DNA from: Pseudomonas furukawaii
GTDB taxonomy: Bacteria > Pseudomonadota > Gammaproteobacteria > Pseudomonadales > Pseudomonadaceae
DNA: 64,000 nt
Assembly (NCBI RefSeq): GCF_002355475.1
Contig: NZ_AP014862.1
Span: forward strand, 3,782,001-3,846,000
Reading direction: 5' to 3'
The notes below the pieces were generated by a model. The model saw only the letters and a program-made list of their open reading frames with translations, did no database searches and was not told the DNA's origin. The translations under genes and the position numbers were made by a program. Numbering within the stretch: the stretch's first letter is position 1; every line of letters starts with the position of its first letter. Positions 37,504-45,292 of the stretch are shown piece by piece.

Positions 37504-37536
37504 ATAAAAAAACCGCGGCCAGGGCCGCGGTTCTTT
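37504..37536. terminator. Bidirectional terminator between BatD and the MMPL gene
   Basis: AACCGCGGCC-AG-GGCCGCGGTT (37511-37532), with seven As on the left and TTCTTT on the right, serves both converging transcripts. It lies 15 bp beyond the MMPL stop. The remaining 135 bp back to the batD stop show nothing notable. Confidence 0.87.
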
Positions 37537-37551
37537 CATTGCCTCGATGGA

Positions 37552-39927
37552 TCAGTGGGCCAGCAGCGAACCGCCGACCTTGCCCGCCAGCTTCTCGGGC
37601 TTGATCAGGAAGCGCGCCAGGGCCGGCAGCAGCCAGAGGGCGCCGAACATGTTCCAGAGGAGCATGAAGGTCAGCATCAGGCCCATGTCCGCCTGGAACT
37701 TGATGGCGGAGAAGATCCAGGTGACCACGCCGATGGCCAGGCACAGGCCGGTGAAGAGCACGGCCTTGCCGGTGGACTTCAGGGTCTGGTAGTAGGCCTC
37801 CTGCAGCGGCAGCCCGGCACGCAGGAAGCTTTCCAGGCGGCTGTAGATGTAGATGCCGTAGTCCACGCCGATGCCCACGCCGAGCGCGATCACCGGCAGG
37901 GTGGCCACTTTCACGCCGATGCCGAGGAAGGCCATCAGCGCGTTGCCCAGCACCGAGGTGAGGATCAAGGGCAACACGATGCACAGGGTGGCCGCCACGG
38001 AGCGGAAGGTCAGCAGGCACATCACGGCGACGCAGATGTACACCAGGATCAGGATGGTCAGTTCGGCCTGGGCGATCACCTCGTTGGTGGCCGCCTCGAT
38101 ACCGGCGTTACCCGCCGCCAGCATGAACTCCAGCCCTTCCTTGTTGTGCTCCTTGGCGAACGCCTCGACGGCATCCACCGCGCGGCTCAGGGTCTCGGCC
38201 TTGTGGTCGTTGAGGAACACCAGCACCGGCGCCAGGGAGCAGTCGGAGTTGTACAGGCCTTCGGCGCGGCTGATGGAGTTGTTCAGCACGTCCTGGTTGC
38301 GGGACAGGGTTTCCCACTTCAGGTTGCCTTCGTTCATCCCTTTGATCACCTGCTTGGAGACGGTGACCATGGAGATGGCGGATTGCACGCCCGGCGTGTT
38401 CTCCATCTTCCACATCAGCTCGTCCACCGGCGCCAGGGTGTCATGGGTGGAGCAGCCTTCGGGGCCGGTCTTGACCATGACCACCAGGACGTCGGAGCTG
38501 GTGGAGTAGTTGTTGATGATGAAGTTGTTGTCCTGGTTGTAGCGCGAGTCCGGGCGCAGTTCCGGAGCCCCCTGGTCGAGGTCGCCGATCTTCAGGTTCT
38601 GGCTGTACCAGAGGCCGCCACCGAAGGCGATCAGGGCGATCACCACGGAAATGGGCGCCACCACCGGATGGGCGAAATTGGACAGCAGGCGCCAGAAGCG
38701 ATGATCGCGCTGGGCGTCGCGCTTGCTGCGCTCGATGGCCTTCTTGCTGATGCCGATGTAGGAGATGGCAACCGGCAGCAGGATCAGGTTGGTGAAGACG
38801 ATGACACCCACGCCGATGGAGGCGCCGATGGCCAGCTCGCGGATCACGCCGATATCGATGACCAGCAGGGTGATGAAGCCCACGGCGTCCACCAGGATGG
38901 CGATCATGCCGGGCAGGAACAGCTGGCGGAAGGTGCGTCGCGCCGCCGTCAGGGCATTGTCGGAATCACTGGATTGCAGGGCGATACCGTTGATCTTCTG
39001 CACGCCATGGGAGATGCCGATGGCGAAGATCAGGAAGGGCACCAGCATGGAATAGGGGTCCAGGCCGAACCCCGCCAGATGCATCAGGCCCAGTTGCCAG
39101 ATCACCGCGATCAGGGTGGTGGACAGCACGGAGATGGTGCTGCGGATGCACCAGCTGAACCAGTAGAGCAGCACCAGGGTGATCAGGAAGGCGATGCCGA
39201 AGAAGGCCACCACCATCATCAGGCCATCGATCAGGTCGCCCACCTTCTTCGCGAAGCCGACGATGTGGATCTTCACGTTGGCGTTCTGAAGCTGGTACTT
39301 GTCGCGGATCTTCTCTTCCAGCTCATGGGAGAACTGGCGATAGTCCAGCTTCATCAGCTTGCCCTGGTCGCTGGGGTCCGGGTAGGACTCCAGCAGCGGC
39401 ACGTCGATGATGCTGGACTTGAAGTTGTTGGCCACCAGGCGACCGATCTGGCCGGACTTGAGCACGTTGTTGCGCAGCTCTTCCAGGCTCGCCTCGGAAC
39501 CGTCGTAGGTCTGCGGGATCACTTCGCCACCGGCGAAGCCTTCCTCGGTCACCTCGGTCCAGCGCACGCTGGGGCTCCACAGGGACTTCAGGCCGGAGCG
39601 ATCGACACCCGGAATGTAGAAGACCTCGTCGTGGATCTGACGCAGGGTCTCCATGTAGTCCTTGTTGAAGATGTCGCCGTCCTTGGCTTCCACCGAGATG
39701 CGCACGGTGTTGCCCAGGTTGGCCAGGTCGTTGCGGTGCTCGATCATCTTCTGGATGTAGGGATGATGGAGCGGGATCATCTTCTCGAAGCTGGTGGACG
39801 GCCGGACCTGCAGCGCCTGCCAGGCCAGGAAGAGGGTCGTCAGCAGACAGAGAATGATCACGGTCGGCCGGTTGTTGAAGATCAGGCGTTCCAGGAAGGT
39901 CGCCTTGTCCTGGTGATGGGTACTCAT
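37552..39927 (-). CDS. MMPL/RND-superfamily lipid- or hydrophobe-type exporter
   Basis: 791 residues, inner membrane. Duplicated RND layout: a TM helix at 24-44, a large periplasmic loop (to about 225), five to six helices (about 230-400), then again a TM (about 425-445), a second periplasmic loop (to about 615) and a final cluster of helices with VIALGVGIGVDYGIYIYSR. This conserved GxGxDY motif in the fourth helix of the half carries the proton-relay Asp of MMPL/HpnN-like transporters. There is no membrane-fusion protein or TolC partner nearby. It follows the YCF48 gene by 20 bp, and the pair forms one transcript downstream of the DUF1329 terminator. Confidence 0.92.
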   Translation of the reverse strand: MSTHHQDKATFLERLIFNNRPTVIILCLLTTLFLAWQALQVRPSTSFEKMIPLHHPYIQKMIEHRNDLANLGNTVRISVEAKDGDIFNKDYMETLRQIHDEVFYIPGVDRSGLKSLWSPSVRWTEVTEEGFAGGEVIPQTYDGSEASLEELRNNVLKSGQIGRLVANNFKSSIIDVPLLESYPDPSDQGKLMKLDYRQFSHELEEKIRDKYQLQNANVKIHIVGFAKKVGDLIDGLMMVVAFFGIAFLITLVLLYWFSWCIRSTISVLSTTLIAVIWQLGLMHLAGFGLDPYSMLVPFLIFAIGISHGVQKINGIALQSSDSDNALTAARRTFRQLFLPGMIAILVDAVGFITLLVIDIGVIRELAIGASIGVGVIVFTNLILLPVAISYIGISKKAIERSKRDAQRDHRFWRLLSNFAHPVVAPISVVIALIAFGGGLWYSQNLKIGDLDQGAPELRPDSRYNQDNNFIINNYSTSSDVLVVMVKTGPEGCSTHDTLAPVDELMWKMENTPGVQSAISMVTVSKQVIKGMNEGNLKWETLSRNQDVLNNSISRAEGLYNSDCSLAPVLVFLNDHKAETLSRAVDAVEAFAKEHNKEGLEFMLAAGNAGIEAATNEVIAQAELTILILVYICVAVMCLLTFRSVAATLCIVLPLILTSVLGNALMAFLGIGVKVATLPVIALGVGIGVDYGIYIYSRLESFLRAGLPLQEAYYQTLKSTGKAVLFTGLCLAIGVVTWIFSAIKFQADMGLMLTFMLLWNMFGALWLLPALARFLIKPEKLAGKVGGSLLAH

Positions 39928-39947
39928 CGAAACTCTCCGCCTTGTTC

Positions 39948-41036
39948 TTATAGTTGGCCCAGCTCGGCGCCGGTCGGCGACGCTACGCGTACACCGCCCT
40001 GTCCCACCAGGATCAGGTTGCCCTTGTCGTCAGCGGTGACAGCGGCCAGCGACAGTCGATCGCTGCGGTTCACCACCTTGAAGCTCCGGCCGCCATCGGT
40101 GCTCTTCAGCACGCTGCCACCGTGGCCGACCACCACCAGGCTGCCGTCGGGCAGCAGGGTGCCACCGGACAGTCCGAACTCCAGCTCGCCGTTGCCGGCG
40201 CTCAGGGGAATGGTCTCCCAGGTGGCGCCGAAGTCGGCGGAGCGGAACAGATGGCCACGCAGGCCATAGGCGATCACGCCACCGGTCTCGCCGGTGCCGA
40301 GCACGCCGAACAGCGAACCCTCGTAGGGGCCTTCGAGGCGCTCCCAGGTTTCGCCCCAGTCGGCGGAGCGGAACATGCTGCCCATCTCGCCGACCACGAA
40401 CAGGCCGGAATCCTTCACGGTGGCGATGGCATTGAGGTGGTACTGATCTTCGTTGTCCAGGCGGTCGCTGACGTCTTCCCAGTTCCGGCCGCCGTCTCGG
40501 GTGCTCAGCAGGGCGCCGTAGGCACCGACGGCAAAGCCGGTGTCGGCGTCCTTGAACCAGATGTCCAGCAGCGGCGCTTCGCGCTCCAGGTCCTGGAACT
40601 GCAGGGCCCAGGTGGCACCGCCATCCTCGCTGGCGAGGATCTGCGCGTCATGGCCGACGGCCCAGCCTTTCTTGTCATCGAGGAAAAAGACGGCGGTCAG
40701 CATCTGGCGACTGGGCACCTTGGCCTGGGTCCAGGACTTGCCGTCGTCATCGGAGTAGAGGATGTGGCCACGATCACCGACGGCCACCAGGCGCTTGCCG
40801 GCGTGGGCGACGTCGAGCAGAAGGCTGCTCACCGCCTTGGGTGATTCGATGGCGAAGACCGGCGCATCGGGCGACGCGGCGGACACGGAAACAGGCGCGA
40901 CGGCTGCGGCAAGGATGGAGAGCACACTGAACAGCGAGAGCGCTTTGGCCAGCGGCGAGTGGAAGCGGAACGCCGGCGTGTGGAGAGCCTCCACGGTGAG
41001 GCCGGACCGGGTGCGCCGCATGACGGGCTCACTCAT
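39948..41036 (-). CDS. YCF48/BNR-repeat beta-propeller protein, exported
   Basis: 362 residues. An N-terminal hydrophobic segment (about 30-53, ending SVSAA) acts as signal peptide or anchor. Six or more BNR-type blade motifs of the form S-x-D-x-G-x-x-W follow: SDDDGKSW, SEDGGATW, TRDGGRNW, SADWGETW, SADFGATW, STDGGRSF. This predicts a periplasmic beta-propeller like the YCF48/HCF136 photosystem assembly factor, here more likely an accessory or assembly factor for the RND transporter. The SD GGGGAAAGG is strong; an internal ATG at codon 6 is an alternative start. Confidence 0.9.
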   Translation of the reverse strand: MSEPVMRRTRSGLTVEALHTPAFRFHSPLAKALSLFSVLSILAAAVAPVSVSAASPDAPVFAIESPKAVSSLLLDVAHAGKRLVAVGDRGHILYSDDDGKSWTQAKVPSRQMLTAVFFLDDKKGWAVGHDAQILASEDGGATWALQFQDLEREAPLLDIWFKDADTGFAVGAYGALLSTRDGGRNWEDVSDRLDNEDQYHLNAIATVKDSGLFVVGEMGSMFRSADWGETWERLEGPYEGSLFGVLGTGETGGVIAYGLRGHLFRSADFGATWETIPLSAGNGELEFGLSGGTLLPDGSLVVVGHGGSVLKSTDGGRSFKVVNRSDRLSLAAVTADDKGNLILVGQGGVRVASPTGAELGQL

Positions 41037-41259
41037 ACACCTTTCCCCTTATTGTTATAGGTGGAGCTGCCCAGGCAGGCAGCGAGCTAATCCTAGCCAG
41101 CTTTGAAAACGCTGCACAATCAGCGGGACGTTATGTTTTGTTAAGCGCAGGTGGCGCTCTGTAACAGGCTCCGCGAGCGGCAAGGCGCCTCGGAGCCGGC
41201 AGCCGACCCCTGATCCGGATGCAAGGGGGTCGGGCCGCAGATGCCCCGGCTCCAAATAA

Positions 41260-41290
41260 GAAGGCCGCTACAGGGTAGCGGCCTTCTTTT
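41260..41290 (-). terminator. Intrinsic terminator after the DUF1329 gene
   Basis: Perfect 12-bp stem GAAGGCCGCTAC / GTAGCGGCCTTC with a 3-nt loop, followed on the minus strand by TTATTT and on the plus strand by TTTT. It lies just past the DUF1329 stop, so the DUF1302-DUF1329 pair probably ends here. The YCF48-MMPL pair would then be transcribed by its own promoter or by read-through. The rest of the 272-bp gap shows no further clear signal. Confidence 0.88.
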
Positions 41291-41308
41291 CCTTGGGCGG
41301 GGTATCGA

Positions 41309-42676
41309 TCAGCGGGTGCCGCGGCGACGCAGGGCGGACGGCTTGAAGTAGCCATCGTCCGACACGGCCTGGGTGAAGTCGATGGTGCTCGGCTCTTCGT
41401 TATCCAGGTTCTGCACGTGGTAGCGACGGGCCTGCAGGTCGTGGAACACGTCCAGCGCGGACCAGGTGGTCGGCAGATCGTAGTAGTTCTTCAGGTAGGC
41501 CACCGAGACGCGCCACAGCTCGCCACGACCGTCGTACTGGTCCACCACCGCGGCTTGCCAGCTGTCCTCGTCGAGGAACAGGGTGCGCTTGGAGTAGATG
41601 TGGCGAGCGCCCGACTTCAGGGTGCCTTCCACGACCCACACGCGGTGCAGTTCGTTACGGGTGACAGCCGGATTCAGGTGGCCAGGCTGCAGCAGTTCCT
41701 CGTACTTAACCTCAGGGCTGGAGACCTTGTAGTTGTTGTACGGGATGTAGATTTCCTTCTTGCCCACCAGCTTCCAGTCGTAGCGGTCCGGGGCACCGTT
41801 GAACATGTCGGTGTCGTCGGCGGTACGCAGGCCGTCGGCGGCGGCGATCGGGGTGTCGTAGGCCAGGTTCGGCGCACGGCGCACGCGGCGCTGGCCGGCG
41901 TTGTAGCCCCAGGCCTGGCGGGGTTCCTTCACCTGGTCCAGGGTCTCGTGAACCAGGGTCGCGCCACCGGCCAGACGCGCCGGGCTCTTGGTGAAGGACA
42001 GGTAGTAGAAGAGGATGTTGTTCAGGTCGGCGTACGAACCCTGCGGGTTGTAGTACTTGAACAGGGCTTCCTGCTGCGAGGTCACCAGGGAGTAGTCACC
42101 GTTGCGCTGCACGGCCACTTCGGAGGCGCGACGCACGATGTAGGTGCCGCGATAGCGGGTGACGTGGTTCCACAGGGCTTCCACGCCGCTCTGCGGAATC
42201 GGGAACGGGATGCCGCCGTAGGCGTCGGCGAAACCGTTGCCGCCGTCGAGCAGCTTGGCGGTGGTGGCGTTCTTGACGGTGTTGTCATAGACCCACTGCG
42301 GCGCGGAACCGGAGCGGCGGGTCTGGTAGACCGGCATCTGGAAGCTGTCGGGATAGGCGTTGAACAGGGCGATCTGGCCGGGGGTCAGGTTGGCCTTGTA
42401 CTGGTCCAGGTTGGCCTTGGTGATGGTGAACAGCGGCTTGTCTTCCGGGAACGGATCGACGTGGTGCTTGCCGGACTTGTAGCCAGCGGGGGCCTGGGTG
42501 ATGCCACCGTTCCACTCGGGAATGGTGCCTGCGGCGTTGCCGGCCTTCTCGGCGCCGAAGGGGGTCAGGCTGGCGCCCAGCTTGGCCGCGTCCTGGGCAG
42601 AAACCAGGGCCAGGGCGTTGCTGGCGGTAAGCGCCAGGGCTACTGCGGCGCTAATCAGCGAAAGCTTTTTCAGCAT
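41309..42676 (-). CDS. DUF1329 exported protein
   Basis: 455 residues with a clean signal peptide (MLKKLSLISAAVALALTASNALA). The mature protein is beta-rich and aromatic; typical DUF1329 pieces are GTIPEWNGGITQAP near residue 50, RRAPNLAYDTP, RYDWKLVGKKEIYIPYNNYK and RKRTLFLDEDSW-like SKRTLFLDEDSWQAA. The function is unknown; I recall the fold being compared with lipoprotein/lipid carriers such as LolA/LolB, but could not verify this. It almost always accompanies a DUF1302 gene, as here (60 bp downstream of it). GGAG precedes the ATG by seven bases. Confidence 0.92.
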   Translation of the reverse strand: MLKKLSLISAAVALALTASNALALVSAQDAAKLGASLTPFGAEKAGNAAGTIPEWNGGITQAPAGYKSGKHHVDPFPEDKPLFTITKANLDQYKANLTPGQIALFNAYPDSFQMPVYQTRRSGSAPQWVYDNTVKNATTAKLLDGGNGFADAYGGIPFPIPQSGVEALWNHVTRYRGTYIVRRASEVAVQRNGDYSLVTSQQEALFKYYNPQGSYADLNNILFYYLSFTKSPARLAGGATLVHETLDQVKEPRQAWGYNAGQRRVRRAPNLAYDTPIAAADGLRTADDTDMFNGAPDRYDWKLVGKKEIYIPYNNYKVSSPEVKYEELLQPGHLNPAVTRNELHRVWVVEGTLKSGARHIYSKRTLFLDEDSWQAAVVDQYDGRGELWRVSVAYLKNYYDLPTTWSALDVFHDLQARRYHVQNLDNEEPSTIDFTQAVSDDGYFKPSALRRRGTR

Positions 42677-42702
42677 GAGGAGTCTCCGTGATGAGTCTGT
42701 AT

Positions 42703-42722
42703 CGGGCGCCTTCAGGCGCCCG
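42703..42722 (-). other. Intercistronic hairpin between DUF1302 and DUF1329
   Basis: CGGGCGCC-TTCA-GGCGCCCG, an 8-bp GC stem with a tetraloop and no T tract, in the 60-bp gap between the two genes. It could stabilise the upstream mRNA or attenuate transcription, giving unequal amounts of the two products. Confidence 0.5.
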
Positions 42723-42736
42723 TATTGTTCTTGTGC

Positions 42737-44773
42737 TTAGAAGGAGTACTTGACGTTGAAGCCGATGTTGTCGCGGTCACGAACCGAGTTGTTCTGGCCG
42801 CCGCCGAAGAACTCGGTGTACTGCAGCTCGGCTTCCAGGCTGTTCAGGTAGCTGGCCTTGACGCCCAGGGTGTAGGCCTTGCGACCTTCGATGAAGTTGC
42901 CGGTCTGGTAGGAGTTGCCCTCGAAGTCGTCCTTGTAGACGACGTAGGGGGAGATGTTCACGCCCGCGTAGACGTCGTTCCAGGTACCGGACAGCAGCAG
43001 GGTGTAGCCGTAGGCGTTCTTGTTGACCTGGTCGTCACGATCGCCGCCGGACACGTAGGAGTTGTTGCCACGACCGGAGTAGTAGCGCTTCTGCCCGTTG
43101 AAGGCGGTGTACTGCAGGTCGCTGCCGCGCAGGTGCTCGGACGCCAGCTCGGCCACGCCGAACAGGGAGTCGAAGGACAGGGACGGGCCGAAGTTATAGA
43201 TGGTGCCCAGGGAGGTGTTGAAGGCCTCCACGCGCTCGTAGTTATGGATCGAATCGCCCAGCTGGACATTCTGCCCGCCGATGTTCACCACGCCGCCAGC
43301 CGACAGTTGCGGCGCCTGGAGCAGCAGGTCACCCAGCAGGTCGTTGGTGGTGGCGACGCCGATGGGCAGGTTCGGACGGTAGGCCAGTTCGCCGAACACC
43401 GAGGCGTTGCCCACGGTGGTGTTGAAGCTGAGGCCGTACATGCGGATGTCTTCGACGTACTCGCGCTGGGCCTGGACGGCATTCGCCACGTCGATGGTCG
43501 CCAGGCCGCCGGCAGCGGTGGTGGCGGCGGCGGTGAGCGCGTTGGAGTACGCCTGGGCCAGCGCCGGGTTGAGGGCCGGGTTGGCCAGCACGGCCTGCAG
43601 CTGGGGAACGCTGATTCCTGCCCCGGCAGCGACGGCCTGCTGCACCTGGGGTGCGAGGACGGTAGCGGCCTGGCCGGCGATCTGGGCCAGGTCGAGACCG
43701 GCGTAGTCACCCAGGTTGGCCGAGATGGTCGGCTCCTTGGCGTGGTAGTTCACGAAATAGAAGCCGAACTCGGTGGAGTTCAATTCTTCCGCGATATAGC
43801 GGAAGGCGACGCCGAACTGGCCATCGTTCTTCGCGTTGATATCAGGACCGACGGAAGCCACCTTGATCACGCCATTGGCGTCCACGGTGCGGCCGCCTTG
43901 CAGGCCGCCCACGCCCAGGGCGCTGAAGCCGCTGTAGAGGCCGGCCAGCGGCTGCAGGCGCGGCTGGGTCGAGTAAGCGGTGTTGCCGCCATCGGCGAAC
44001 AGGTCGGTTTCCGAGTAGTAGGTGCCCACCGGGTCGATGGCCGACTCCTTCCAGTTCCACTGGTAGAAGGTCTCCATGGACAGGTTCTCGGTCAGGCCGA
44101 GGTTGAAGCTCAGGGCCTCCACCGGCACCAGCACTTCCTTCAGCTCCGAGCCCGGCAGGCGGAACTTGGCGGCGTCCACCGGGTTGGTGGTGTTCACGCC
44201 GCCCCGGTAGAAGACGCCCTCGCCCCAGTTGAACACCTGCTTGCCGATACGGCCGGTGACCGGCATGTCGGCCACGTCCCAGTTGCCATAGAGGTAGGCG
44301 TCGAGGATCTGCGCATCGCGACCGGCCTTGTGGCGGGTCTCGTAGGTGAAGCTGTCATCCTTGGGGAAGTTCTGGCTCGGCTGGCCCGGGTTGTTGTTGT
44401 CGTAGTAGTCGTTGCGCTTGTCCATGATCTGGGTGTCATAGAAAGCGGTACCGCGCACGAACAGGCCGTAGTTCTTGTAGGTGGCTTCCAGGTCGGAGGT
44501 GATCTTGTACACCTCGGAAACCAGCCCGGTGTCGAAGTTGCGGTTGCCGTCGTTGGTATTGATGTCGTCGTTGGACTTGTCCCGGCCCTGGACGCGCCAC
44601 AGCTGGCCGTAGGAGACGGTGGTATCGAGGGAACCGGAAATTTCGTCGTTGGCGAAGCTGAACTCCACCGCCTGGGCCTGAGCCGCCACCAGCAGGGGGA
44701 GGATGCCGGCGAAGGCGAAGCCTGCCTTGGCCGGCGCAAAACGCAATAGGGGCTTACGGGACTTGAGTTCCAT
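42737..44773 (-). CDS. DUF1302 outer-membrane protein
   Basis: 678 residues. The signal peptide ends AAQAQA (about residue 35). The mature protein starts with VEFSFANDEISGSLDTTVSYG and is rich in amphipathic beta strands (e.g. YTYETR, GRIGKQVFNWGEG). It ends in an aromatic residue (GFNVKYSF), as outer-membrane barrels do. Residues about 358-440 are different: an Ala/Leu/Val-rich, predicted helical segment (AGQAATVLAPQVQQAVAAGA) that a simple barrel would not need. First gene of the DUF1302-DUF1329 operon, with GGAG before the ATG and a strong sigma-54 site about 165 bp upstream. Confidence 0.92.
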   Translation of the reverse strand: MELKSRKPLLRFAPAKAGFAFAGILPLLVAAQAQAVEFSFANDEISGSLDTTVSYGQLWRVQGRDKSNDDINTNDGNRNFDTGLVSEVYKITSDLEATYKNYGLFVRGTAFYDTQIMDKRNDYYDNNNPGQPSQNFPKDDSFTYETRHKAGRDAQILDAYLYGNWDVADMPVTGRIGKQVFNWGEGVFYRGGVNTTNPVDAAKFRLPGSELKEVLVPVEALSFNLGLTENLSMETFYQWNWKESAIDPVGTYYSETDLFADGGNTAYSTQPRLQPLAGLYSGFSALGVGGLQGGRTVDANGVIKVASVGPDINAKNDGQFGVAFRYIAEELNSTEFGFYFVNYHAKEPTISANLGDYAGLDLAQIAGQAATVLAPQVQQAVAAGAGISVPQLQAVLANPALNPALAQAYSNALTAAATTAAGGLATIDVANAVQAQREYVEDIRMYGLSFNTTVGNASVFGELAYRPNLPIGVATTNDLLGDLLLQAPQLSAGGVVNIGGQNVQLGDSIHNYERVEAFNTSLGTIYNFGPSLSFDSLFGVAELASEHLRGSDLQYTAFNGQKRYYSGRGNNSYVSGGDRDDQVNKNAYGYTLLLSGTWNDVYAGVNISPYVVYKDDFEGNSYQTGNFIEGRKAYTLGVKASYLNSLEAELQYTEFFGGGQNNSVRDRDNIGFNVKYSF

Positions 44774-44937: not shown

Positions 44938-44955
44938 TGCAACCATGGTGCCAAG
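44938..44955 (-). promoter_or_regulatory. Near-consensus sigma-54 promoter of the DUF1302 operon
   Basis: On the minus strand the site reads TTGGCACCATGGTTGCA, matching YTGGCACG-N4-TTGCW at all positions but one. GG and GC are at the required 12-bp spacing. It points at the DUF1302 gene, with transcription expected to start near 44928. This is the best sigma-54 site I found in the window. Confidence 0.75.
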
Positions 44956-45048
44956 TCACTCGCAGTCGTCAAAAAACAACCCCGGTTCCGGCGACGAAAA
45001 ATTGTCAAACAAGTGACTGATCATCCACTGACCAATAACCGATTTTCT

Positions 45049-45065
45049 GTCCGATCTTGTCGGAC
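45049..45065. promoter_or_regulatory. Inverted repeat at enhancer distance upstream of the sigma-54 promoter
   Basis: GTCCGA-TCTTG-TCGGAC, perfect 6-bp arms, centred about 130 bp upstream of the predicted start. That is the usual range for a sigma-54 activator binding site. Near-identical 12-mers TTGTCAAACAAG (45002-45013) and TTGTCACTCAAG (45079-45090) flank it. Binding by an enhancer-binding protein is inferred. Confidence 0.5.
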
Positions 45066-45202
45066 GATCTGGCTCGATTTGTCACTCAAGATCACACTTG
45101 CAGGGCATGTACGTCCCTACCGAAAGCTGCCTGGTCAAGTGAAATGCAGTGTTTTCAGTCCCTCCGCGCATAAGCACGCCAAGGGTTATTTCCTTGAGTA
45201 AC

Positions 45203-45235
45203 AAAAAAGTGTTACCGGCGCTGACCGGTAACACT
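45203..45235 (-). terminator. Intrinsic terminator of pepN
   Basis: AGTGTTACCGG-CGCTGA-CCGGTAACACT, an 11-bp perfect stem followed by TTTTTTGTT on the minus strand. It lies 57 bp past the pepN stop and also insulates the DUF1302 regulatory region. Confidence 0.92.
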
Positions 45236-45292
45236 TCGGGGAAAGGCGGTGCGGAGGGGTGGACGACCCGCCTGGACGGGCCGTCGGCAGGG

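Follow-up and report, generated by a model that had tools for sequence, protein, structure and literature searches.

We believe that the four genes at 37552-44773 of the stretch of DNA analysed here (the window, 64,000 nucleotides from Pseudomonas furukawaii) are probably a core Pseudomonadaceae member of the AmeABCD type of envelope transporter, working by the hydrophobe-transport mechanism proposed below. This assigns a conserved, unnamed Pseudomonas locus to a known transporter type. It also flags a misleading enzyme name on what is likely an outer-membrane protein. The block sits between batD and pepN, and a profile search places all four of its ORFs above the Pfam cut-offs for their families. 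Its features, in the direction of transcription, are these:

45206-45237, minus strand: terminator-like hairpin after pepN, followed by a T-run; upstream border of the block
45013-45115 (element 45013-45065), minus strand: conserved upstream region with the GTCCGACAAGATCGGAC inverted repeat and TGATCAGTCAC, from an alignment of 25 upstream regions
44938-44953, minus strand: sigma-54-type promoter motif TGGCACCATGGTTGCA, 180 nt upstream of the start codon of DUF1302
42737-44773, minus strand: DUF1302 protein, a predicted outer-membrane barrel, AmeA-like (678 aa; PF06980, 543 bits)
41309-42676, minus strand: DUF1329 protein, exported, AmeB-like (455 aa; PF07044, 549 bits)
41258-41288, minus strand: terminator-like hairpin directly after DUF1329 and before YCF48 (-26 kcal/mol)
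39948-41036, minus strand: YCF48 beta-propeller protein, exported, AmeC-like (362 aa; PF14870, 94 bits)
37552-39927, minus strand: MMPL/RND inner-membrane protein, AmeD-like, the core pump (791 aa; PF03176, 112 bits)
37511-37532, minus strand: terminator-like hairpin after MMPL, followed by a T-run

The sequence-only reading had described four families in a block on one strand flanked by terminators, and this is borne out: every ORF lies on the minus strand with its own Pfam match, and terminator-like hairpins with T-runs stand after pepN and after MMPL. It overlooked the hairpin at 41258-41288, which lies in the 272-bp gap between DUF1329 and YCF48 and is absent from the terminator scan list because its stem extends into a short T-rich tail. 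Taken together, this hairpin, the gap and the sigma-54-type site indicate that the block is probably transcribed as two units, DUF1302-DUF1329 and YCF48-MMPL. The sigma-54-type site is the only one of its score within the window. All 18 loci of the window's genus have it (once with an altered spacer base). Among full-block loci, 12 of the 17 in the P. aeruginosa-type genus and 7 of the 15 named ones have it, the strict motif being missing from five and eight respectively. The counts for the window's genus and for the named loci are not independent, since the 18 genus genomes and the named loci share species. Upstream of the site lies the conserved region 45013-45115, in which the inverted repeat and TGATCAGTCAC are candidate activator sites. 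The element occurs once in the window's genome when up to 3 mismatches are allowed, so it points to no regulon and gives no clue to the substrate.

The proteins were also said to span the envelope and perhaps to move a hydrophobic compound. We agree that the module is real: the predicted places run from the inner to the outer membrane, and hydrophobe phenotypes are described for mutants of relatives in the accessible parts of PMC6394551 and PMC10866462. The best NCBIfam model for the MMPL protein is HAE3 (TIGR00921; E 1.4e-45), scoring 155.7 bits where the cut-off is 351.9, and it falls far short of the HpnN models (65.8 bits vs 751.85, and 22.2 vs 1100). In a PDB sequence search its solved relatives are MmpL proteins. 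One half of the pump has Ser-His and the other has Asp-Tyr at the corresponding motif. All 80 orthologs and all 6 paralogs keep both, an invariance that, judged from known RND relays, would fit proton coupling. The same PDB search matched the YCF48 protein to solved Ycf48 chains (E 4e-20), gave a single chance-level match for DUF1329 (E 0.17) and returned none for DUF1302. DUF1329 scores weakly against PF17131 LolA_like (28.7 bits, cut-off 30), and precomputed annotation lists PF17131.12 for its close homologs. Phe is the last residue of the window's DUF1302 protein, as it is in outer-membrane barrels, and 11 of the genome's 12 DUF1302 proteins share this ending. Single-protein AlphaFold2 models were poor, with a mean pLDDT of 35 for DUF1329 (18 close homologs) and 53 for DUF1302 (28 close homologs).

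The block is a stable-chromosome copy and not an acquired extra. The sequence-only reading took it to be accessory on the ground that PAO1 has cprRS there instead. We reject this: the window has the conserved copy beside pepN. All 18 genomes of the window's genus have DUF1302, and all 25 of the P. aeruginosa-type genus have the pump. Of these 25 (window proteins as queries, E 1e-15), 17 have a full block beside pepN, 2 have just one of the two genes DUF1302 and DUF1329 there and 6 lack both, and the P. aeruginosa-type loci whose gap was read hold other genes there. One of the 17, G129, carries a response regulator (by Pfam) and an ORF with a histidine-kinase motif directly beside MMPL, with the full block and pepN present. 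Its azurin is 98 percent identical to that of P. aeruginosa. For PAO1 the evidence is indirect, and we take the gene order at this locus to be PA3079-PA3083. The accessible parts of the literature list PA3079 as an SSD-domain protein (PMC11987610), PA3082 as gbt (PMC7775676) and Gbt at 71 kDa (PMC12893005), and report that a transposon mutant in PA3080, probably the YCF48 gene of the pepN locus, showed attenuation when P. aeruginosa TB was screened in C. elegans (PMC2714965).

The DUF1302 orthologs of the block (P0131, P0139, P0153, P0154, P0183) carry, in some database sources, the name glycine/betaine transmethylase. As judged from the sequence this name is implausible. DUF1302 is the sole Pfam family found in the protein, which shows no methyltransferase domain in Pfam and has no NCBIfam matches, and we reject the identity on the Pfam result. 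The label seems to come from PA3082 (gbt) of PAO1 and a 2002 mutant paper, as far as the sources available in part allow us to trace it.

The neighbourhood comparison proposed along with the block was carried out, and the families do cluster. The window's genome has 12 DUF1302, 13 DUF1329, 6 YCF48 and 6 close MMPL loci. All six pumps and all six YCF48 loci sit with DUF1302 and DUF1329, and six further DUF1302-DUF1329 pairs have no adjoining pump. Pairwise identity among the six pumps is 36-62 percent. Apart from the window's block, loci L014-L019 comprise five four-gene cassettes and one pump-less pair, with neighbours that look catabolic in a by-eye reading of their translations. The thirteenth DUF1329 gene (G000:C1:269733-270824) has no DUF1302 match beside it.

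Seven named Pseudomonas genomes together hold 64 DUF1302 genes and 34 pumps, and DUF1302 lies within 6 kb of 25 of the 27 accessory pumps vs 2 of the 7 core pumps. In each of the five genomes whose core pump lacks an adjoining DUF1302, between 2 and 9 DUF1302 genes are orphans. YCF48 adjoins the pump in all of the best 80 named pump loci, every one from Pseudomonas. The full block is at the pepN site in 15 of these 80 and missing in many species; ten of the 80 end upstream at contig ends, and one of the 15 (L105) is counted on a 379-residue DUF1302 segment.

Across the family the pump (E 1e-60 or better) occurs in 95 of 119 genomes, all of which have DUF1302 (E 1e-30 or better). The 24 pump-less genomes, four of them assigned by elimination, divide into 12 with DUF1302 and 12 without. 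The association gives a Fisher p of 3e-10, the genomes being related and thus not independent. Some genomes combine a single pump with several DUF1302 genes (at least 8 in G008, at least 7 in G007). These DUF1302 counts are lower bounds, with no more than 10 candidates scored in any genome, as the window's own genome illustrates with at least 10 there vs 12 in its own search. In one genus of Pseudomonadaceae (g6) the 12 sampled genomes, G022 included, all lack both DUF1302 and the pump. In genus g5 (L149:9954-16084) two pump copies stand in tandem, sharing 72 and 67 percent identity with the window's pump, and the best YCF48 match lies between them.

Plasmids carry the system as well. A pump of this type is present in 40 records of the plasmid collection, and all four genes are on 7 of the 8 of these that were inspected (on L150 two of them are absent from the gene table and were located by tblastn). 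On the remaining one, L151, MMPL and a shortened YCF48 lie amid transposases. Neighbours of the cassettes include homogentisate dioxygenase (L153), pobA (L154), dmpG (L156) and CoA-pathway genes (L150, L155). The four-gene cassettes on the P. aeruginosa PA83, H15 and LYT4 plasmids (L150, L155, L157) lie close to transposases. Transporters of this type are found both as complete cassettes and as pumps separated from their outer modules.

In the mechanism we propose, the MMPL/RND protein, driven by protons and with YCF48 as its partner, would move a hydrophobic molecule between the inner membrane and the periplasm. The cargo may be a long-chain acyl compound, a hydrocarbon or something similar. 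We infer that DUF1329 would be the carrier of the hydrophobe and DUF1302 its door in the outer membrane, with a likely path from the inner membrane to DUF1329 and then DUF1302. Outward movement is slightly favoured, by analogy, because characterised RND pumps export.

The core pumps without a local DUF1302, the orphan DUF1302 genes and the two-locus phenotype of P. putida suggest a further idea. The YCF48-MMPL pair beside pepN could be a hub pump, with DUF1302-DUF1329 as one of several exchangeable outer modules. One conserved pepN-side pair would then serve several modules, each separately regulated, and a new substrate would need only a new outer module. We put this forward tentatively, at rather less than an even chance. 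If it is true, deleting one pump would probe many DUF1302-DUF1329 pairs together. The accessible parts of the open-licence literature searched contained no mention that we found of either the hub idea or the sigma-54-type promoter.

The same parts could instead work inwards. DUF1302 would admit the hydrophobe, DUF1329 would carry it in, and YCF48-MMPL would help it to enter or cross the inner membrane on its way to catabolism. The plasmid cassettes close to catabolic genes would suit such uptake, but it runs against the general knowledge that characterised RND pumps export. The mutant data, in the parts of the papers available, also point both ways: the requirement for the four families on Tween 20 in P. 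putida (PMC10866462) and the poorer growth of a Delftia DUF1329 deletion on phenanthrene (cited in PMC13101534) speak for uptake, while the raised Nile Red accumulation of the ameABCD deletion (PMC6394551) speaks against it. We consider uptake unlikely, if still a serious competitor.

It is harder to defend the view that the core pump exports a lipid or lipid-like compound made by the cell to the outer membrane, the growth phenotypes being indirect. The presence of the pump in 25 of 25 P. aeruginosa-type genomes, at a housekeeping site beside pepN, and its solved MmpL relatives would be expected of envelope upkeep. Yet the pump is missing from 24 of 119 family genomes and is therefore not essential, and six diverse cassettes in one genome better fit substrates from outside; we find this explanation improbable. 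Finally, the hairpin and separate promoter that divide the block, along with the 5 of 7 named genomes whose core pump has no adjoining DUF1302, could mean that two unrelated units are neighbours by accident. We give this very little credence, given DUF1302 within 6 kb of 25 of 27 accessory pumps and, in the accessible text of PMC10866462, a Tween 20 phenotype common to both P. putida loci.

Systems of the AmeABCD type were already in print, and the suggestion that the block is an undescribed system is not supported. The HpnN, MmpL3 and BstA transporters share the RND/MMPL superfamily with the window's pump, which is far below their NCBIfam cut-offs. The remaining reports are described as far as the parts of each source available go. 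A 'nanopod' cluster in a methanogenic benzene degrader combines DUF1329, YCF48-related and MMPL genes with a porin-like protein; it differs from the block in belonging to distant bacteria, in its extra stress-protein genes and in having a predicted function only (PMC13101534, which also cites the Delftia deletion). DUF1302 and DUF1329 proteins have been found in nanopods (PMC3110197). A crude-oil P. aeruginosa has RND, DUF1302 and DUF1329 genes and a 'glycosyl hydrolase' near an almA-like gene (PMC7145413).

Closer to the window is P. putida, in which PP_0765, PP_0766, PP_2018 and PP_2019 are required on Tween 20, again in the available parts of the source (PMC10866462). These are the same four families acting jointly, from two loci and not from one block as in the window. 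Contacts predicted by AlphaFold were strong for PP_2018-PP_2019 (YCF48-RND) and weak for PP_0766 with PP_0765 (DUF1302-DUF1329) and with PP_2019 (DUF1329-RND) (PMC10866462). A P. putida genome in our set has pepN-YCF48-MMPL without DUF1302 or DUF1329 (L061), a locus that we take to be PP_2018-PP_2019.

The closest likeness is to AmeABCD of Castellaniella defragrans 65Phen, which the accessible text of PMC6394551 gives as a DUF1302, a DUF1329, a YCF48-type (COG4447) and an RND protein. The families and their order, DUF1302-DUF1329-YCF48-RND, are identical to those of the window's block, and it is by families and order that we liken the two. A deletion mutant exists: it grew poorly on limonene, and its Nile Red accumulation was slightly higher, as seen with a protonophore (PMC6394551). 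The same text places every member of the AmeD lineage in such cassettes. AmeABCD lies in a monoterpene island, whereas the window's block lies between batD and pepN. Unlike AmeABCD, the block has an internal hairpin and its own promoter, and in other species its pump often stands alone.
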